Source of the DNA: Vagococcus sp. CY52-2
GTDB taxonomy: Bacteria > Bacillota > Bacilli > Lactobacillales > Vagococcaceae
DNA: 64,000 nucleotides
Direction: 5' to 3'
Assembly: GCF_022655055.1 (NCBI RefSeq)
Contig: NZ_CP093384.1
Coordinates: 1,178,001-1,242,000 of the forward strand
Shown piece after piece: positions 496-8,287 of the stretch. A program made the translations under genes and the position numbers. Below the pieces are notes generated by a model. It was given only the letters and a program-made list of their open reading frames with translations, ran no database searches and had not been told where the DNA came from. Positions within the stretch are counted from its first letter, which is position 1. Each line of letters begins with the position of its first letter.

Positions 496-1221
496 TTAAC
501 TTAAACGTTCAACGTAAGACTGTGTTTCAACTTCCCCATACTGTTTTTTTAACCATTCTTCTTCTGCTTCAACTTTTTTCAAATAAGTTGGAACAAAGAC
601 ATCGATATCTGTTATTTCTTCCATAAGATATTCTAATTCCAACATAACAGCTGGATTAGAAGGTTGAATGATTAACTCGATTTCTGCTTCAAGGGAAAAT
701 GTTTCAAATAAACTTTGTAATTTACCAAAATCTTCTCCGATAAAAACAATCGATTCTCCATAACTTAGTAAGATTTTAGTCCACTCTTCAAATGATATAT
801 ATTGATCTTCAATAACATTCATTAATTTAGAGCCGTCATATTTATAAGCACCTGTATATAAAAAGCCTCGCCTAGCATCCATAAATGGCACAATTAATTT
901 AGTTGTTTGTTGAATATTTTTTGCTAAACAAGCAAGTGAAGATATAGCATATAAAGAGGCATCCAAGCTCCAACTTAATGTTTTAGCTGTTGTCACACCA
1001 ATTCTTAACCCCGTATAGGAACCTGGCCCTTTTGCCACAATTATTTTAGTGATATCTGTCGGTGCTAACCGACTTTCACGAACACAAAAATCAATCGCTG
1101 GCATCAATGTTTCACTATGATTTTTACTTGCTTGACTGTAATAAGACGAGATGAGATTCTGTTCTTCTCCAAGTACGACACCTAGCGCTTTATTTGATGT
1201 ATCAATACCTAGTACTGTCAT
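496..1221 (-). CDS. tsaB: tRNA t6A biosynthesis protein TsaB
   Basis: A 241-residue protein of the ASKHA (actin-like ATPase) fold. It begins MTVLGIDTSN and carries the family motifs S-E-T-L-M-P and G-P-G-S-Y-T-G-L-R-I-G. TsaB is the partner that activates TsaD in making N6-threonylcarbamoyl-adenosine at position 37 of ANN-decoding tRNAs. The frame is open 12 codons further up, but a lysine/arginine-rich lead is not expected in this family, and an AGGATT ribosome binding site precedes the chosen ATG. It is directly upstream of rimI. Confidence 0.93.
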   Translation of the reverse strand: MTVLGIDTSNKALGVVLGEEQNLISSYYSQASKNHSETLMPAIDFCVRESRLAPTDITKIIVAKGPGSYTGLRIGVTTAKTLSWSLDASLYAISSLACLAKNIQQTTKLIVPFMDARRGFLYTGAYKYDGSKLMNVIEDQYISFEEWTKILLSYGESIVFIGEDFGKLQSLFETFSLEAEIELIIQPSNPAVMLELEYLMEEITDIDVFVPTYLKKVEAEEEWLKKQYGEVETQSYVERLS

Positions 1222-1293
1222 AATTATACCAATCCTTTTTCTATTTTTCTGTTTCATTGTAGCATAAAAGACTACCTTCTTGTGTTATTTAGA

Positions 1294-1818: not shown

Positions 1819-2229
1819 TTACTCTGCAAGTAATGTAATATCAACATTTCCTTTAATTGCCTTTGTATAAGGACAAATGGTTTCAGTTTCCTTTAGATAT
1901 TTCATTGTATCATCTTTAGATAAACCGTCTATTTTACCAATTAAAGTGACTTCAAGATGTAAACTGTGTTCATCAGGTAAATCACCAAGTAACGTAACTT
2001 CTGCTCTAATTTCACGATGATGATCAGCTAACCCATCACGCTTCAAAGGAAATTCTAATGCACCATTAAAACAAGCAGAGATACCTGCTGCAAATAATTC
2101 TTCTGGATTAGTATAACCTTCCTTTTTTTGTCCGCTAGTTTTTAAATCTAAAAATCCAGTTATAGATTTACTTTCTCCTTCACGGCCTCCACTATTTACT
2201 ACAGTTGAAATTGACATTTTTTTTGACAT
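1819..2229 (-). CDS. Organic hydroperoxide resistance protein (Ohr/OsmC family)
   Basis: A 136-residue protein with the Ohr layout. The first redox cysteine, C53, is in the motif NPEELFAAGISACF, and the second is in ICPYTKAIKGN near residue 118. An arginine near residue 16 matches the active-site arginine of the family. Ohr proteins reduce organic peroxides with a thiol pair in the cytoplasm. A monocistronic gene with its own terminator. I cannot see an OhrR regulator beside it. Ohr is favoured over OsmC by the CPY motif and the length. Confidence 0.85.
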   Translation of the reverse strand: MSKKMSISTVVNSGGREGESKSITGFLDLKTSGQKKEGYTNPEELFAAGISACFNGALEFPLKRDGLADHHREIRAEVTLLGDLPDEHSLHLEVTLIGKIDGLSKDDTMKYLKETETICPYTKAIKGNVDITLLAE

Positions 2230-3002: not shown

Positions 3003-3728
3003 TTAAATGGATAAGCCAAATAAGTAAGACAGTAATAGAACAATAGCTCCCATAATATTATTCATAAAGTGTACTAACATAGAATCAATAATTCGACCAC
3101 GTGAACTATATGCCCAATACATCAAAGCACCTAAAGAGGCATACATCCCGAAAGAAATAATATTTGAAGATAAATGAACGCTGGAGAACACTAGAGAGGT
3201 CACAATCATTGGAACCCAGACAGGCATTTTTGGAAACAGTAATGTCGTTGGTAACCCACGAAAAATTAGTTCTTCTAGAATAGGAGCTTTAATAGCTATG
3301 GTAATAGTCATAATCAACACATAATAAATCGATTCATCTTGAGAAAATAATGCCGCAATCGCTTCATCATTAGCACTTGAACCAGTTCCATAAAATTGTT
3401 GCATTAAACCAGTTCCAACAATAGCTATCACACGTCCTAATAAAAAGATTTTAAACGCACGCCATATGTCTTTTCCTGTAACACTTGTATCAATATCATG
3501 TGATTTTTTTTTATAGTATCTCCAAATAAACCATATCACACCAACCAATACAATTAACCAACACATAAACAAAATAAAACTCACACCATTTTGTTTTTTA
3601 TTAAAAATAGGTTGAAACAGGGTTAACAATACTGAAGGAAACTCACTCACTATCAACATACCTAAAATAATAAAAATACCAATAATAAATAATGCGATTT
3701 TTTTACCTATAGAAACTTCTTCTTTCAA
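3003..3728 (-). CDS. CPBP family intramembrane metalloprotease
   Basis: A 241-residue multi-pass membrane protein with all three conserved motifs of the CPBP (CAAX-protease and bacteriocin-processing) family: EELIFRG at residues 152-158, FSSVH at 181-185 and HFMNN at 220-224. The metal/catalytic residues look complete, so an active protease is expected. In Gram-positives such proteins process peptides or give bacteriocin self-immunity. The start is a TTG overlapping the TGA of the upstream gene by 4 bases, with a GGAGG site 7 bases before it, so the two are translationally coupled. Its substrate is unknown. The GalT-like partner is an unusual neighbour. Confidence 0.85.
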   Translation of the reverse strand: MKEEVSIGKKIALFIIGIFIILGMLIVSEFPSVLLTLFQPIFNKKQNGVSFILFMCWLIVLVGVIWFIWRYYKKKSHDIDTSVTGKDIWRAFKIFLLGRVIAIVGTGLMQQFYGTGSSANDEAIAALFSQDESIYYVLIMTITIAIKAPILEELIFRGLPTTLLFPKMPVWVPMIVTSLVFSSVHLSSNIISFGMYASLGALMYWAYSSRGRIIDSMLVHFMNNIMGAIVLLLSYLFGLSI

Positions 3729-4765
3729 TACTTAACCTCCAATTCATTGCTTAATATTTCCATTGTACATAACCAATTATCTCGTGATTTTTCAAAAATT
3801 TCTTCATTTAATGTAATAATAAATTGGTAGCCTGTATCTATTTTTAATAAATCATAAGTAAAATCTGTACTAAATAATCCTTTTTTTAAAGAAACTGTTA
3901 GAGAAAAAATATAACTAAAAATCAGCCATAAATCCTTAGCTTTCTTTACTTGAATAACCAACTCATTATTTTTTAGACTGTTATAAGATAGCAAAGAATC
4001 TTTAAAAAATGGCAGAGTTTGATGACAAGTCATTTTTCTATTTTTTTGAGGTCTTCTTCCAATCAAATAACTATGTCCTTTAAATGAATTTTCACTACAA
4101 TACTGTAATTCATATTGTGGATATAAATCAACGATTCCTGTCATTCTATCCAACAAATAACTATTCATTAATAAATATGTGTGAGCCTCTGTAAAAAATA
4201 TTCCTTCTTCGATTTCTTTTTTTGTTGGGTTTAATTGATATCCCCAACTGTCATTAGCTAAATTTAACCGAATAAATCGTCTAGTCTTTTTTAAATAATC
4301 TGAGTGATGAACAAATACTCCTTCATTACAAAAACAGATGGGACAAATTCCTTCTTCCTCATTATCATAATCTTCATGTGTTTCACCTGTTAGATAACCA
4401 TTCACTTGATTCAACCAATAAAAATAATTTGTTGCCTCAACTGCAGAGGTTTCAAATTTTTTAGCAAACATAGCATTCACGACAGATGGTGGTGGTGTTA
4501 AAATATCCATCAAACTTTGTGATAAAAACTCAATATCTTTATCAGTTTGATAACAATCTGGCTTATTTTTCTTAGCAATTTTTACTAGAGAGTGACACAA
4601 TTCCTCTGTTGAAAGATTAGAAATTTGATTTCTGGTATCGACTATTTCTCCACACCCAATCATTTCAGCTATCTTATTTTGAAGATAAACTCGATCTAGT
4701 CGCATCCAGCCACCGGATTCAATCGCTAAACTAACAAAATCATAAACTACCTGAGAGTCTTTCAT
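3725..4765 (-). CDS. Degenerate GalT-type (Gram-positive galactose-1-P uridylyltransferase-like) protein lacking the catalytic histidines
   Basis: 346 residues. The N-terminal 125 residues follow the Firmicute GalT type: DRVYLQNK at 24-31, LMDILTPPPSVVN at 85-97, then a Y-x-x-x-x-x-NGYL segment. CPICFCNEG at 141-149 and the RFIRLNL...WGYQLNP stretch at 163-180 also match in order. Genuine enzymes then have a G-G-S-I-L-[ST]-H-[DE]-H-Y-Q active site. Here the aligned stretch reads GHSYLIGRRPQ (230-240), so both catalytic histidines are gone. The family is about 490 residues long, so roughly 150 are also missing. It is therefore probably a non-enzymatic, perhaps sugar-nucleotide-sensing protein (inference). 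A strong AAAGGAG site precedes it, and the coding sequence is intact. It is coupled to the CPBP protease. Confidence 0.65.
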   Translation of the reverse strand: MKDSQVVYDFVSLAIESGGWMRLDRVYLQNKIAEMIGCGEIVDTRNQISNLSTEELCHSLVKIAKKNKPDCYQTDKDIEFLSQSLMDILTPPPSVVNAMFAKKFETSAVEATNYFYWLNQVNGYLTGETHEDYDNEEEGICPICFCNEGVFVHHSDYLKKTRRFIRLNLANDSWGYQLNPTKKEIEEGIFFTEAHTYLLMNSYLLDRMTGIVDLYPQYELQYCSENSFKGHSYLIGRRPQKNRKMTCHQTLPFFKDSLLSYNSLKNNELVIQVKKAKDLWLIFSYIFSLTVSLKKGLFSTDFTYDLLKIDTGYQFIITLNEEIFEKSRDNWLCTMEILSNELEVKY

Positions 4766-4815
4766 AATGATTCTCCTTTATTAAATTGACTAACCAATAT
4801 TATAAACTATTTTTA

Positions 4816-4866
4816 CAAAAAAAACCTGTTTTTTCAAAGAATTTCCTCTTTAAAAACAACAGATTT
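4816..4866 (-). terminator. Terminator of nagB
   Basis: A long AT-rich hairpin pairs a CTGTT..AAAG arm with a CTTTG..ACAG arm and is followed by eight T residues on the minus strand, directly past the nagB stop. Confidence 0.7.
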
Positions 4867-4872
4867 TTCTCA

Positions 4873-5574
4873 TTATAATTTACTAGCCGCTTCTTCATCT
4901 ACAATAATAGTCACATCAGGATGAACTTGTAAAGCACTTGCAGGGACTAATTCAGATACAGGTCCTTTAACCGTTTCATAAATAGCTTGAGCTTTTTTTG
5001 GTCCATAAGCTAATAAAATAATTTTATCTGCCATCATAATAGACCCAATTCCCATTGAATACGCTTTTGTTGGAACTTCTGAAATATCAGAAAAATTTCG
5101 ACTATTTGCTTCAATCGTTGATTCCGTTAGATTAACTTCACTTGTTTTACCATCAAAAGAAGATCCTGGCTCATTAAATCCAATATGTCCATTTTCGCCA
5201 ATTCCTAAAATTTGAATATCAATTGGATGTGCTTCTAAAATTTCATCATAGCGTTTGCATTCTTCCTTCGCATTTTTTGCCATGCCGTTTGGTAAAAATG
5301 TTTCTTTAAATGGTTTTTCATTAAATAAATGTTCTTTCATAAAATAATGATAGCTTTGTGGATTGTCTGCTTTAAGTCCGACATATTCATCCAAGTTAAC
5401 AGACGTCATATTGCTAAAATCAACATCACTTTCTATCATTTCTTTATATAATGCCTCAGGAGTACTTCCAGTTGCTAAACCTAGCGTTTTAATTCCATTA
5501 GCCATTCCATCTTTAATCATATCAAAAGCAACTATTGCACCTTCAAATTGGTCTTTTACTTTAATGATTTTCAT
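4873..5574 (-). CDS. nagB: Glucosamine-6-phosphate deaminase
   Basis: A 233-residue cytoplasmic enzyme converting glucosamine-6-phosphate to fructose-6-phosphate and ammonia. Visible motifs are LGLATGSTP (substrate phosphate loop), NLDEYVGL (catalytic aspartate) and GIGENGHIGFNEPG (catalytic histidine region). The ATG at 5574 is preferred over one six codons upstream, because a GGAGGG ribosome binding site lies between them and the resulting MKIIKVKDQ start matches the family. It is transcribed alone from a promoter overlapped by a NagR-type operator. Confidence 0.95.
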   Translation of the reverse strand: MKIIKVKDQFEGAIVAFDMIKDGMANGIKTLGLATGSTPEALYKEMIESDVDFSNMTSVNLDEYVGLKADNPQSYHYFMKEHLFNEKPFKETFLPNGMAKNAKEECKRYDEILEAHPIDIQILGIGENGHIGFNEPGSSFDGKTSEVNLTESTIEANSRNFSDISEVPTKAYSMGIGSIMMADKIILLAYGPKKAQAIYETVKGPVSELVPASALQVHPDVTIIVDEEAASKL

Positions 5575-5590
5575 AATAAATCCCTCCATC

Positions 5591-5633
5591 ATTGGTATAG
5601 TCCAATTATACTCTTATCTGTTTCTTTTTTCAA
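5591..5633 (-). promoter_or_regulatory. nagB promoter with NagR/DasR-type operator
   Basis: The -35 TTGAAA (5628-5633) and -10 TATAAT (5605-5610) are separated by exactly 17 bases. The palindrome ATTGGTATAGTCCAAT at 5591-5606 overlaps the -10 and the expected start of transcription. It resembles the operator of GntR-family amino-sugar regulators (NagR/DasR), which are released by glucosamine-6-phosphate or its N-acetyl form. The rest of 5641-5918 is AT-rich and shows nothing else. Confidence 0.7.
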
Positions 5634-5918
5634 GAAAGAGTTTTTTTTCCATGATTTAACTAGCTATTGCCCACTAAAGATATACCACCAGCAATCATTT
5701 TTTAAGACGCTATTTTTCTTTAAATACTAAATATTAAATGAATATTGTTCATTTATACATACAATAAGTCACAAAGTAAAATAATCAAACAGTCACATTA
5801 GACTTTAATCCTTGAAAAATTATCCGAGTTCATCAATTTTTTTTATCTTCTAATCAAATAGTAGTACATATTATTTGATACACCCAATACAACTCGATAC
5901 TATAATATAAATTAAATG

Positions 5919-5958
5919 TAAAAAAACATCACCTTACTTTTTAAAAAGTAAGATAATG
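5919..5958 (-). terminator. Terminator of the 66-residue ORF
   Basis: The palindrome CTTACTTTTTAAAAAGTAAG (5933-5952) has flanking CAT/ATG pairing and is followed by seven T residues on the minus strand. Confidence 0.75.
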
Positions 5959-5964
5959 CCTCTT

Positions 5965-6165
5965 TTAATAACTATAATGATTCTCACCATCAGCATATTT
6001 CATAGCTTGTTTTTGAACTAGCTCAATATATATATCTTCTGCTTCTTCAATACTTGTACAATTAATCGTAATTTTCTTCCCATTTTTTTCCAATCGATCC
6101 TGAACTAATTTTAGTGCCACATTTTGATTTAATTTTTTGGATGTTTCTTGATAATCTTTTTTCAT
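5965..6165 (-). CDS. Small cytoplasmic protein of unknown function
   Basis: 66 residues, highly charged, no membrane segment, predicted mostly helical. A short strand-like segment KKITINCTS at about 30-38 is followed by an acidic helix (IEEAEDIYIELVQKQ). It has an AAAGG ribosome binding site and its own terminator, which support a real gene. No family recognised. Confidence 0.6.
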   Translation of the reverse strand: MKKDYQETSKKLNQNVALKLVQDRLEKNGKKITINCTSIEEAEDIYIELVQKQAMKYADGENHYSY

Positions 6166-6298
6166 TATTTATCAGCCTTTCTTTTATTAATCACGGACAA
6201 TTAATTATGTATCAAATATATTTTAACTCTTAACTACTGAACAGTTATAATAAAACTATAAAATATTAACGATTAATAAATGAAGAATTAAAAACAAT

Positions 6299-6338
6299 AA
6301 AAAAAACAAAATGCTTAATATTAACATTCTGTTTTTTA
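6299..6338 (-). terminator. Terminator of the Na+/H+ antiporter gene
   Basis: The hairpin arms ACAAAATG and CATTCTGT pair fully only as minus-strand RNA, where the one irregular pair becomes G-U. A run of T follows on that strand. Confidence 0.7.
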
Positions 6339-6349
6339 TTTCTATAATT

Positions 6350-8287
6350 CTAAGCAATAAATTGAATACTACTTTCAATCGCCGATAAATTTTCACGATA
6401 AATGGTTAGCTCTTGACGATTCATTTTCCCTTTTTCAAATTCTTTCTGAATGTAATCTCGTTCTAATTGTATCGCGTAATCTAACCACTCATCCAGTGTA
6501 TCTTCACTCATATCAATGACTGTTTGATCTCTATCCTCGTATCGCGTCAAATAAAAATCGATTAGTTCAGGTGGAAATTCAGTTGTATCTAATTGATTAA
6601 GCATTCTTATCACATAATTTCGATTACTTTCTTTTAATTTAATTTTTAACTCTTTTTTTCTATCAAAACTAGTTAAGCGAGTTCCTAAGAATTTCAAATG
6701 TGTTCCTATAATATTTTTGTAAAACGAATTTTTACTATACTCAGGTTTATGAGTTAATCGAAATAGGCGTCTATCTAATACTTCTAACCGTCTAAAAACC
6801 ATTTGTAAACTGACTTCACCAGACTCAACTAATTCTAATGTATCTTTTAATTGCCAAACTAAAACCAATTCCATCAACTCTTTATTTTTTTCACTAAACT
6901 CATCATGATTCACTAATGATACAATTCTCTCGTTGTACAGTTGAATCACTTTACGAATCGCTGAAGTATTTTGTTCGGTTTGTTTACGTTTGAGCTGTTC
7001 AGTAACGCGACGTAATATTTGAACTTCTATTTCTGTATTGGTTTCAATAGATTCTTCTTTTTTATCTGCTAATAATGGCATAGCAAAATTGGCTAGAAGC
7101 AGTGTCACAATAATGACTCCTGCTGCTATACTAATCAATAGTTCACGCTCAATAAATATGTCACCCGTGCTTAATACTGTTGGTAAACTAAGGGCACTGA
7201 CTAACGTAATTGTCCCACGAACACCTGAGACTGTATAAAGTAATGATTTTTTTATATCGTGTTTTCCTTTAAATCCATCAAAGTTATTACAAACAAGAAC
7301 ACATAAAAAACGAATCCCTAATAATACAGTTGTAACGATTAAAACATAACCTAAAATGGTCCAGTTGTTAATTTGATTGGTTTTCCAAACATAATGAGCT
7401 AAATCGGGAAGTTGTGTCCCTAATAACACGAAAACCAAGCCATTTAAGCTAAAACTATAAATAGACCACGTACTTTTTGACAAAATATTAAGTTGAGCCA
7501 CTTCAGGATTTATTTTTTTGTAATTCCATGAGTAAATTAGCCCCGCACTTACGACCGCTAAAATACCATTCACACCAAGTGTCTCTGCCATTAAAAAAAC
7601 TATAAATGGTAAAAGCAGTTCAAATAAAATGTATGATACATTATTTTCAATACCAAGTGATTTCATCCAGCGTATAAACCATAAACCTAATAACCCTGAT
7701 ACCACACCAATCAAAACACCACCTAGAGAAATCAAAACGAAACTCACTTCAGCATCAACTAATGAAAATACACCTGTTAAAAGTGCAGCTGAGGCAAATT
7801 GAAATGACACAAGACCAGACGCATCATTAATCAAAGACTCCCCTTCTAGTGTATGCAACATTCTATGTGGAATTTTTACTTTTTCTGCTAAAGCACCAAC
7901 TGCTACCGCGTCTGTAGGGGCTAATGCTGCTGATAAAGCAAAACATGCTGCCCATGGAGCTAGTGGAACAAGTAAGTGGATCACATATCCTAAAATACCT
8001 ACCGTAATAAATACCAACAAAATAGATAAAGTCAATACTGCTTTTTTTTCTTTCCATAAAGCTTTTTTGTCAACCATCTGACCTTCATTAAATAATAAAG
8101 GGGCTAAAAAAACTAACATAAATAATTCCGATTCAAGTTCAAACGAATGAACAAATGATAGTAGAGCTATTCCAAATCCTAACACAACTTGTATTAGGGG
8201 GGTCGCAATATTAGGGAAAAATCGACTCATGATATTCGAAATCAATACCATTGATAACATCACTAAAATACCCTCGAATAATTGCAT
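6350..8287 (-). CDS. CPA1 family Na+/H+ antiporter
   Basis: 645 residues. The N-terminal 400 form about 12 transmembrane segments of the NhaP/NHE-like CPA1 family, including the conserved stretch SAALAPTDAVAVGAL (about residues 118-132) with the ion-binding aspartate, and GVRGTITLVSALSLP near 355. A soluble C-terminal region of about 230 residues follows, mostly helical and charged, as in Gram-positive NhaK/YjcE-like antiporters. It exchanges cytoplasmic Na+ (or K+) for protons. Monocistronic with its own promoter and terminator. Substrate preference cannot be read from sequence. Confidence 0.88.
   Translation of the reverse strand: MQLFEGILVMLSMVLISNIMSRFFPNIATPLIQVVLGFGIALLSFVHSFELESELFMLVFLAPLLFNEGQMVDKKALWKEKKAVLTLSILLVFITVGILGYVIHLLVPLAPWAACFALSAALAPTDAVAVGALAEKVKIPHRMLHTLEGESLINDASGLVSFQFASAALLTGVFSLVDAEVSFVLISLGGVLIGVVSGLLGLWFIRWMKSLGIENNVSYILFELLLPFIVFLMAETLGVNGILAVVSAGLIYSWNYKKINPEVAQLNILSKSTWSIYSFSLNGLVFVLLGTQLPDLAHYVWKTNQINNWTILGYVLIVTTVLLGIRFLCVLVCNNFDGFKGKHDIKKSLLYTVSGVRGTITLVSALSLPTVLSTGDIFIERELLISIAAGVIIVTLLLANFAMPLLADKKEESIETNTEIEVQILRRVTEQLKRKQTEQNTSAIRKVIQLYNERIVSLVNHDEFSEKNKELMELVLVWQLKDTLELVESGEVSLQMVFRRLEVLDRRLFRLTHKPEYSKNSFYKNIIGTHLKFLGTRLTSFDRKKELKIKLKESNRNYVIRMLNQLDTTEFPPELIDFYLTRYEDRDQTVIDMSEDTLDEWLDYAIQLERDYIQKEFEKGKMNRQELTIYRENLSAIESSIQFIA

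Follow-up and report, generated by a model that had tools for sequence, protein, structure and literature searches.

By a narrow preference on our part, the GalT of Enterococcus, Vagococcus and their relatives would have a non-galactose function in its N-terminal domain that was never lost in the near-complete genomes searched, and dead remnants of the enzyme would have arisen repeatedly, each time catalysis could be dispensed with. One candidate remnant, here called X, is encoded in the window, a 64,000-nucleotide stretch of a Vagococcus genome of 2.10 Mb. We think it probable that native GalT is bifunctional, with a non-catalytic role in its N-terminal domain, and that X is what was left in place, at the ancestral galKETR locus, after catalysis was lost. 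We infer the second function from patterns of retention, conservation and selection.

X as a GalT relative, and its neighbours

X matches Pfam PF01087 (27.8 bits, cut-off 22.1) and the NCBIfam GalT models, with E values down to 1e-32 but scores far under the family cut-offs. X reaches 91 of the 650 bits that galT_2 (TIGR01239) demands, and also falls short with the 11 further models listed. Aligned by hhalign with nine canonical GalT, a 16-member profile of X gives an E value of 1.7e-99 over its full length, and a profile of four short X proteins only gives 5.8e-48 over residues 1-289. The relation to GalT that the original prediction had seen is borne out, and as judged from these alignments the kinship of X with type-2 (Firmicute) GalT is beyond doubt. 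The prediction had placed the likeness between residue 20 and about residue 230; the relation stands, but not the starting point, as residues 1-20 are also GalT-like. A search of solved structures by sequence gave no match to type-2 GalT.

The family alignments place H231-S-Y-L-I of X against the HxHYQ stretch, with Tyr233 at the nucleophile position. X therefore retains the first His of HxHxQ; at the second, which by GalT chemistry we take to be the nucleophile, it has Tyr. This assignment rests on the wider alignments, because the profile of the four short X proteins aligned the stretch differently. The loss of the catalytic His had been predicted correctly, but the proposed replacement, IGRRPQ, lies just downstream of the aligned stretch. 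Nor is the loss confined to the C-terminal third, as had been thought. A segment of about 45 residues that would stand after PPPSVVN and before CxxC (the IKTR...INLSKPEKD segment, IKTRAIAKN...LEITINLSKPEKD) is lacking, as is the FHPH/HHIKKE segment (FHPH...HHIKKENIGLIEVMG), and the sequence between both gaps aligns with GalT. The FHPH...HH stretch presumably has a metal-site role, as in E. coli GalT. Both segments are missing or replaced across the X-type proteins, which range from 337 to 443 aa. X therefore resembles type-2 GalT (the galT_2 TIGR01239 and PRK05270 models) in homology along most of its length, in its place at the native galT locus of relatives and in its zinc-ligand set, but differs in the missing nucleophile and segments and in its scores.

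The zinc ligands of X are presumably C, C, H and H, by analogy with E. coli GalT. All four are retained in 26 of the 27 X proteins, the exception (X_G093) having none of them. The nucleophile His is gone in 24/27. The original prediction had been staked on homologues that lack the histidines as well, and this holds in part: three of the 27 have both His, and the same three are without the other catalytic segments. An X with a changed catalytic or ligand-binding activity, for instance sensing of nucleotide sugars or some other chemistry that the fold allows, would suit the near-universal zinc-ligand set (C176 and H230 are each retained in only 12 of the 15 enzymes co-resident with X) and the three proteins with both His. 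We regard such an activity as improbable, as the nucleophile is otherwise gone, the IKTR...INLSKPEKD and FHPH segments are missing or replaced, and conservation within X is lowest in the core and C part.

Table 1. Features of the X locus; positions are those of the window.
Feature	Position	Strand	Basis
X (type-2 GalT-like, without catalytic residues)	3725..4765	-	346 aa ORF, Pfam/NCBIfam matches, alignments, dN/dS
X N-terminal region, residues 1-126, best conserved part	4388..4765	-	X-X identity comparison
GGWM-type motif of X, residues 17-30 (SGGWMRLDRVYLQN)	4676..4717	-	motif comparison
LTPPPSVVNA motif of X, residues 89-98	4472..4501	-	motif comparison
C141-x-x-C144 of X, two of four putative zinc ligands	4334..4345	-	alignment
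H195 of X, putative third zinc ligand	4181..4183	-	alignment
H231-S-Y-L-I of X, HDHYQ equivalent; H231 putative fourth zinc ligand, Tyr233 at nucleophile position	4061..4075	-	family alignments
Ribosome-binding site AAAGGAG of X, 7 bases 5' of ATG	4773..4779	-	sequence
GGAGG ribosome-binding site of CPBP gene, within final codons of X	3736..3740	-	sequence
CPBP (Rce1-like) intramembrane protease, 241 aa, TTG start, 4-base overlap with X	3003..3728	-	ORF, PF02517, motifs
nagB, upstream neighbour, marker of ancestral gal locus	4873..5592	-	profile matches, synteny
tsaB, downstream marker of ancestral gal locus	496..1257	-	profile matches, synteny

The strong ribosome-binding site of X and its four-base overlap with the TTG start of the protease gene, both described before, are confirmed (Table 1). 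The protease was also rightly called intact: it matches PF02517 with 63 bits and has the motifs of CPBP/Rce1-like proteases (EELIFR, FSSVH, HFMNN). Between the CPBP gene and tsaB, at window positions 1819-2229, lies a gene for an Ohr/OsmC-type peroxiredoxin, which is also found in G008 and was not seen at the other loci compared.

The pair of genes extends beyond this strain: of the 13 Vagococcus that bear X, ten have the CPBP gene next to it (4-base overlap in six, 17-22 bases apart in four). The EExxxR/FxxxH/HxxNN motifs are present in all ten of these proteases, with EELVIR as the variant in G003. Both the arrangement and the intact motifs would be expected if X worked in the cytosol as an adaptor or sensor, gating the protease or supplying it with substrates. 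Three Vagococcus have X but no CPBP gene at the locus (G002, G011, G007), and no CPBP gene adjoins X in the seven remaining X-bearers of the family or at seven loci beyond it (one at a contig end). Conversely, G001 has nagB-CPBP without X, and a motif-bearing GalT elsewhere in its genome. X-type genes are thus more widespread than the pairing, which speaks against the protease as the key to the role of X, and we give the adaptor model little chance. The pairing is a local feature of Vagococcus laid over a wider X story, because the X loci examined outside Vagococcus have no adjacent CPBP gene. A functional link within Vagococcus is possible from the gene arrangement, and a sensing or substrate-presenting role, as first proposed, is possible for X. 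In literature searched at the abstract level we found neither a CPBP protease paired with a GalT relative nor dead GalT paralogues.

The gal locus and the descent of X

The window genome is without a detectable Leloir pathway. Neither a second GalT nor galK was detected in it, and its galE sits away from the X locus. X-type genes occur in 20 of the 29 Vagococcus-family genomes, in 6 of 105 genomes from a second family (f3) and in at least one genome elsewhere (G033), the last sought by open-frame length among the matches listed. The second family is Enterococcus-like on our reading of its place, and other family names beyond Vagococcus are likewise our own reading. The 29 genomes of the Vagococcus family comprise 11 with X only, nine with X and canonical GalT and nine with GalT only; the 18 with canonical GalT include a fragment (G018) and a frameshifted gene (G021). 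The gene galK is present in 17/29, each also with GalT. In G020 (89% complete), GalT is on a 3-kb contig without galK. The native galT of G021 (L111, about 5000-6700) has PPPSVINA intact, and a single frameshift, which may be a sequencing error or a recent loss, separates its N-terminal region from the CxxC core.

The order nagB-galK-galE-galT-galR-tsaB is found in G014, G023 and G028, with extra genes interspersed in G028 and G014. X-bearers of the Vagococcus family have nagB-[galE]-X-[CPBP]-tsaB, several of the loci with additional genes; exceptions are G015, where X is elsewhere, and G007 and G013, where tsaB is elsewhere. The second family repeats this pattern. Between identical outer flanks, G147, G140 and G251 have galKETR along with two further genes, and G271, G335 and G341 have X alone. 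G342 resembles the latter three, minus one flank gene, at a contig end. G286 retains galE-X, and G093 has X-tsaB, whereas its siblings G045 and G255 have galKETR-tsaB. In X-bearers with a canonical GalT, the canonical gene is at a different place from X. By reading of the sequences, the gal or X locus of the second family (L127, L192, L193) is preceded by rhomboid-like, ROK glucokinase-like and rhodanese-like proteins. G051 (L236) has galE-galT without galK or galR, with a full-length GalT in which FHPH has become FPLY, and is an intermediate state.

Because X occupies the galT position, it probably arose by erosion in place, and more than once, though a single origin is still conceivable. In a tree that combines 24 X with 23 GalT of other kinds, a single branch (73/99) sets the X apart; the branches are long and the bootstrap had not settled. 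An AU test does not reject placing T_G028 with the X of its genus (p 0.23), but rejects placing X_G093 with its sibling O_G045 (p 0.022), which goes against repeated origins in place. The branch in the tree and this rejection, together with the loss of the same segments in common, fit a single ancient paralogue that arose once beside galT, with one or the other later kept at the locus. We give this history some weight but consider it unlikely. X stands at the place of galT in two families, erosion is under way in galK-less genomes without X, a motif-bearing second GalT is found in none of the 15 X-bearers with two genes, and the tree has long branches. Repeated erosion in place remains our preferred history.

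The enzymes beside X also bear on the line of descent. In a careful tree of 46 enzymes, 19 native enzymes fall on one side of a branch (58/89). A 97/94 branch holds the native enzymes, the group of G271, G286, G335, G341 and G342 and one other-family enzyme. Outside it are T_G007/T_G013, T_G024/T_G026, T_G093 and the group of G002, G004, G005, G010 and G011. This tree needs four changes, three of them forced by starred branches. The 15 enzymes beside X thus have at least three origins by starred branches, none within the native enzymes, so that it is X, and not the working enzyme, that continues the native line; the enzymes beside X were perhaps acquired. A quick tree of 68 enzymes needs six changes and puts T_G007/T_G013 within the native clade. 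If this pair were native, as the quick tree has it, an enzyme of the native line living beside X would have lost the motifs; the careful tree, which we follow, contradicts this, and in the tree of X and GalT the pair groups with T_G024/T_G026. The canonical GalT of G024 and G026 (L109, L110) has HDHYQ, but its putative zinc site is short of one Cys and one His.

Selection, conserved motifs and retention without galK

Open-frame X-type genes are present in 26 genomes besides that of the window. Six close pairs, compared by the NG86 method, give X a dN/dS of 0.10-0.16: G000-G008 (0.10), G008-G004 (0.16), G010-G005 (0.16), G024-G026 (0.13), G006-G009 (0.14) and G000-G004 (0.14, blurred by a low-dS tract common to nagB). 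In the distant pair G000-G010 it is 0.33. X is therefore maintained by selection, as had been supposed. In most pairs purifying selection on X is weaker than on nagB, and on the order of that on tsaB or CPBP. Slow decay, with X a functionless pseudogene in progress whose frames are open by chance, would account for the lost catalytic segments, the range of lengths, the fast-evolving core and the values of dN/dS mostly above those of nagB and NhaP. It is very improbable in view of the low dN/dS in close pairs, the 27 open frames, the near-invariant N-terminal motifs and the retention of the lineage in all 15 near-complete genomes without galK (see below).

The low-dS tract shows when window positions 3725-5592 are compared with V. 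bubulae (G004, L078), the named relative of the window genome (85% identical), which also has the X-CPBP pair. For this pair dS is about 0.28 in nagB and in the first 126 codons of X, 1.35-1.53 in the remainder of X and 1.0 in CPBP, likely by recombination. Constraint at the level of nucleic acid on the 5' region of X was considered and set aside: nagB has an equally low dS (0.28), other pairs are inconsistent and fourfold sites are only slightly raised. Across X and the native enzymes, identity at fourfold sites is 0.33-0.38 at the motifs against 0.28-0.33 elsewhere, a difference so slight that the constraint must be mainly on the protein.

Mean identity among 19 X proteins is 39% in residues 1-126, 33% in the core and 20% in the C part, against 45%, 74% and 58% for the same regions of 22 enzymes. 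In its N-terminal region X thus comes close to the enzymes in conservation, and in the rest it does not. Two motifs lie in this region (Table 1). PP[PT][SA][VF]xNAxF is present in 27/27 X proteins and in 81 of 82 enzymes from those genomes of the two families that are without X (the remaining enzyme carries I in place of V), but in none of the 15 enzymes co-resident with X and none of 22 enzymes of other families. GGWMxxDRxYLxN, as a loose expression, is found in 26/27 X proteins and 82/82 enzymes of X-less genomes, against 0/15 beside X and 0/22 in other families; T_G335, an enzyme beside X, reads SGGWK. These counts cover 146 sequences, with the expressions fitted to the first 107; the 40 sequences read later (33 X-less enzymes, three X and four beside X) match the expressions apart from the one I for V. 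The 82 exclude G018 and G021, both of which have PPPSVxNA. In the second family, GalT was read in 75 of the 97 X-less genomes with a match, and the other 22 have profile scores in the range of native enzymes. The 22 enzymes of other families were picked from the better-scoring of 155. Descent may explain why the co-resident enzymes lack the motifs of X, and the contrast alone does not argue for a division of labour.

Each of the 125 near-complete genomes from the two families has a gene of the GalT lineage (27/27 and 98/98), a count that, like all those given here, is weakened by shared descent. Among them, galK is missing from 11/27 genomes of the Vagococcus family and 4/98 of the second, and all 15 keep the GalT-lineage gene. 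We identified no GalT-lineage match in G298 and G330, which are 74% and 77% complete and not among the near-complete genomes. Counted as having galK were genomes with stop-containing or split matches (G290, G322, G348) or weak matches (G114, G186, G199, G281, G292). In a sample of the order, 65 of 220 genomes outside the two families are without galK, and only four of these 65 have a GalT-family gene, one of which is the X of G033. Within the two families the same sample has 14 galK-less genomes, the incomplete G020 included, and 14/14 keep the GalT-lineage gene. The difference has a Fisher p of 2.5e-12, with shared descent ignored and lists matched by eye. The cut-off for galK was 1e-30 within the two families and 1e-20 in the order sample.

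Five galK-less genomes of the second family (four near-complete, and G307) encode a full-length GalT. These proteins retain 32-34 of 35 invariant N-terminal columns, and 7-10/17, 52-56/68 and 49-64/74 in the other regions. The N-terminal region is within the range of 77 normal enzymes and the other regions are under the lowest of them, a comparison in which the invariant columns were picked from the same 77 enzymes and the five proteins amount to about three lineages. We take these GalT to be at the beginning of erosion.

A possible second function of GalT

We propose that the N-terminal domain (GGWM-x-x-DRxYLxN and LTPPPSVVNA), on a GalT fold stabilized by zinc, would most likely bind a protein partner. 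It might be a scaffold or a regulator that performs no UDP-sugar chemistry, although this is a guess at the nature of the function. Where the galactose pathway is lost, or where a second GalT of other descent supplies catalysis, the native copy would be freed from catalysis and retained for its second role. In the lineage of the window, X has also come to overlap the CPBP gene, a lineage-specific arrangement; the protease would be unneeded for the second role. The N-terminal domain may not suffice alone, because X keeps parts of the core and C domains.

Yeast Gal3p and the bifunctional Gal1p of Kluyveromyces lactis are a case in which an enzyme of galactose metabolism has a further role apart from catalysis, and this role persists in a catalysis-free form, with Gal80 as the partner. 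As would be expected of a Gal3-like remnant, the non-catalytic copy in our genomes is under purifying selection (dN/dS 0.10-0.16). X would be alike in keeping the second function of a galactose enzyme without catalysis, which for X we infer only; the yeast proteins differ in being kinases and not GalT, and in having a known partner. Gal1/Gal3 of yeast, a system treated in PMC7556753, is the closest known parallel to a catalysis-free remnant.

For these two families, the annotation "galT" does not imply use of galactose. If the proposal is true, a textbook galactose enzyme would have an unrecognized second role across enterococci and vagococci, and the remnant proteins would point to the part of GalT that is worth study.
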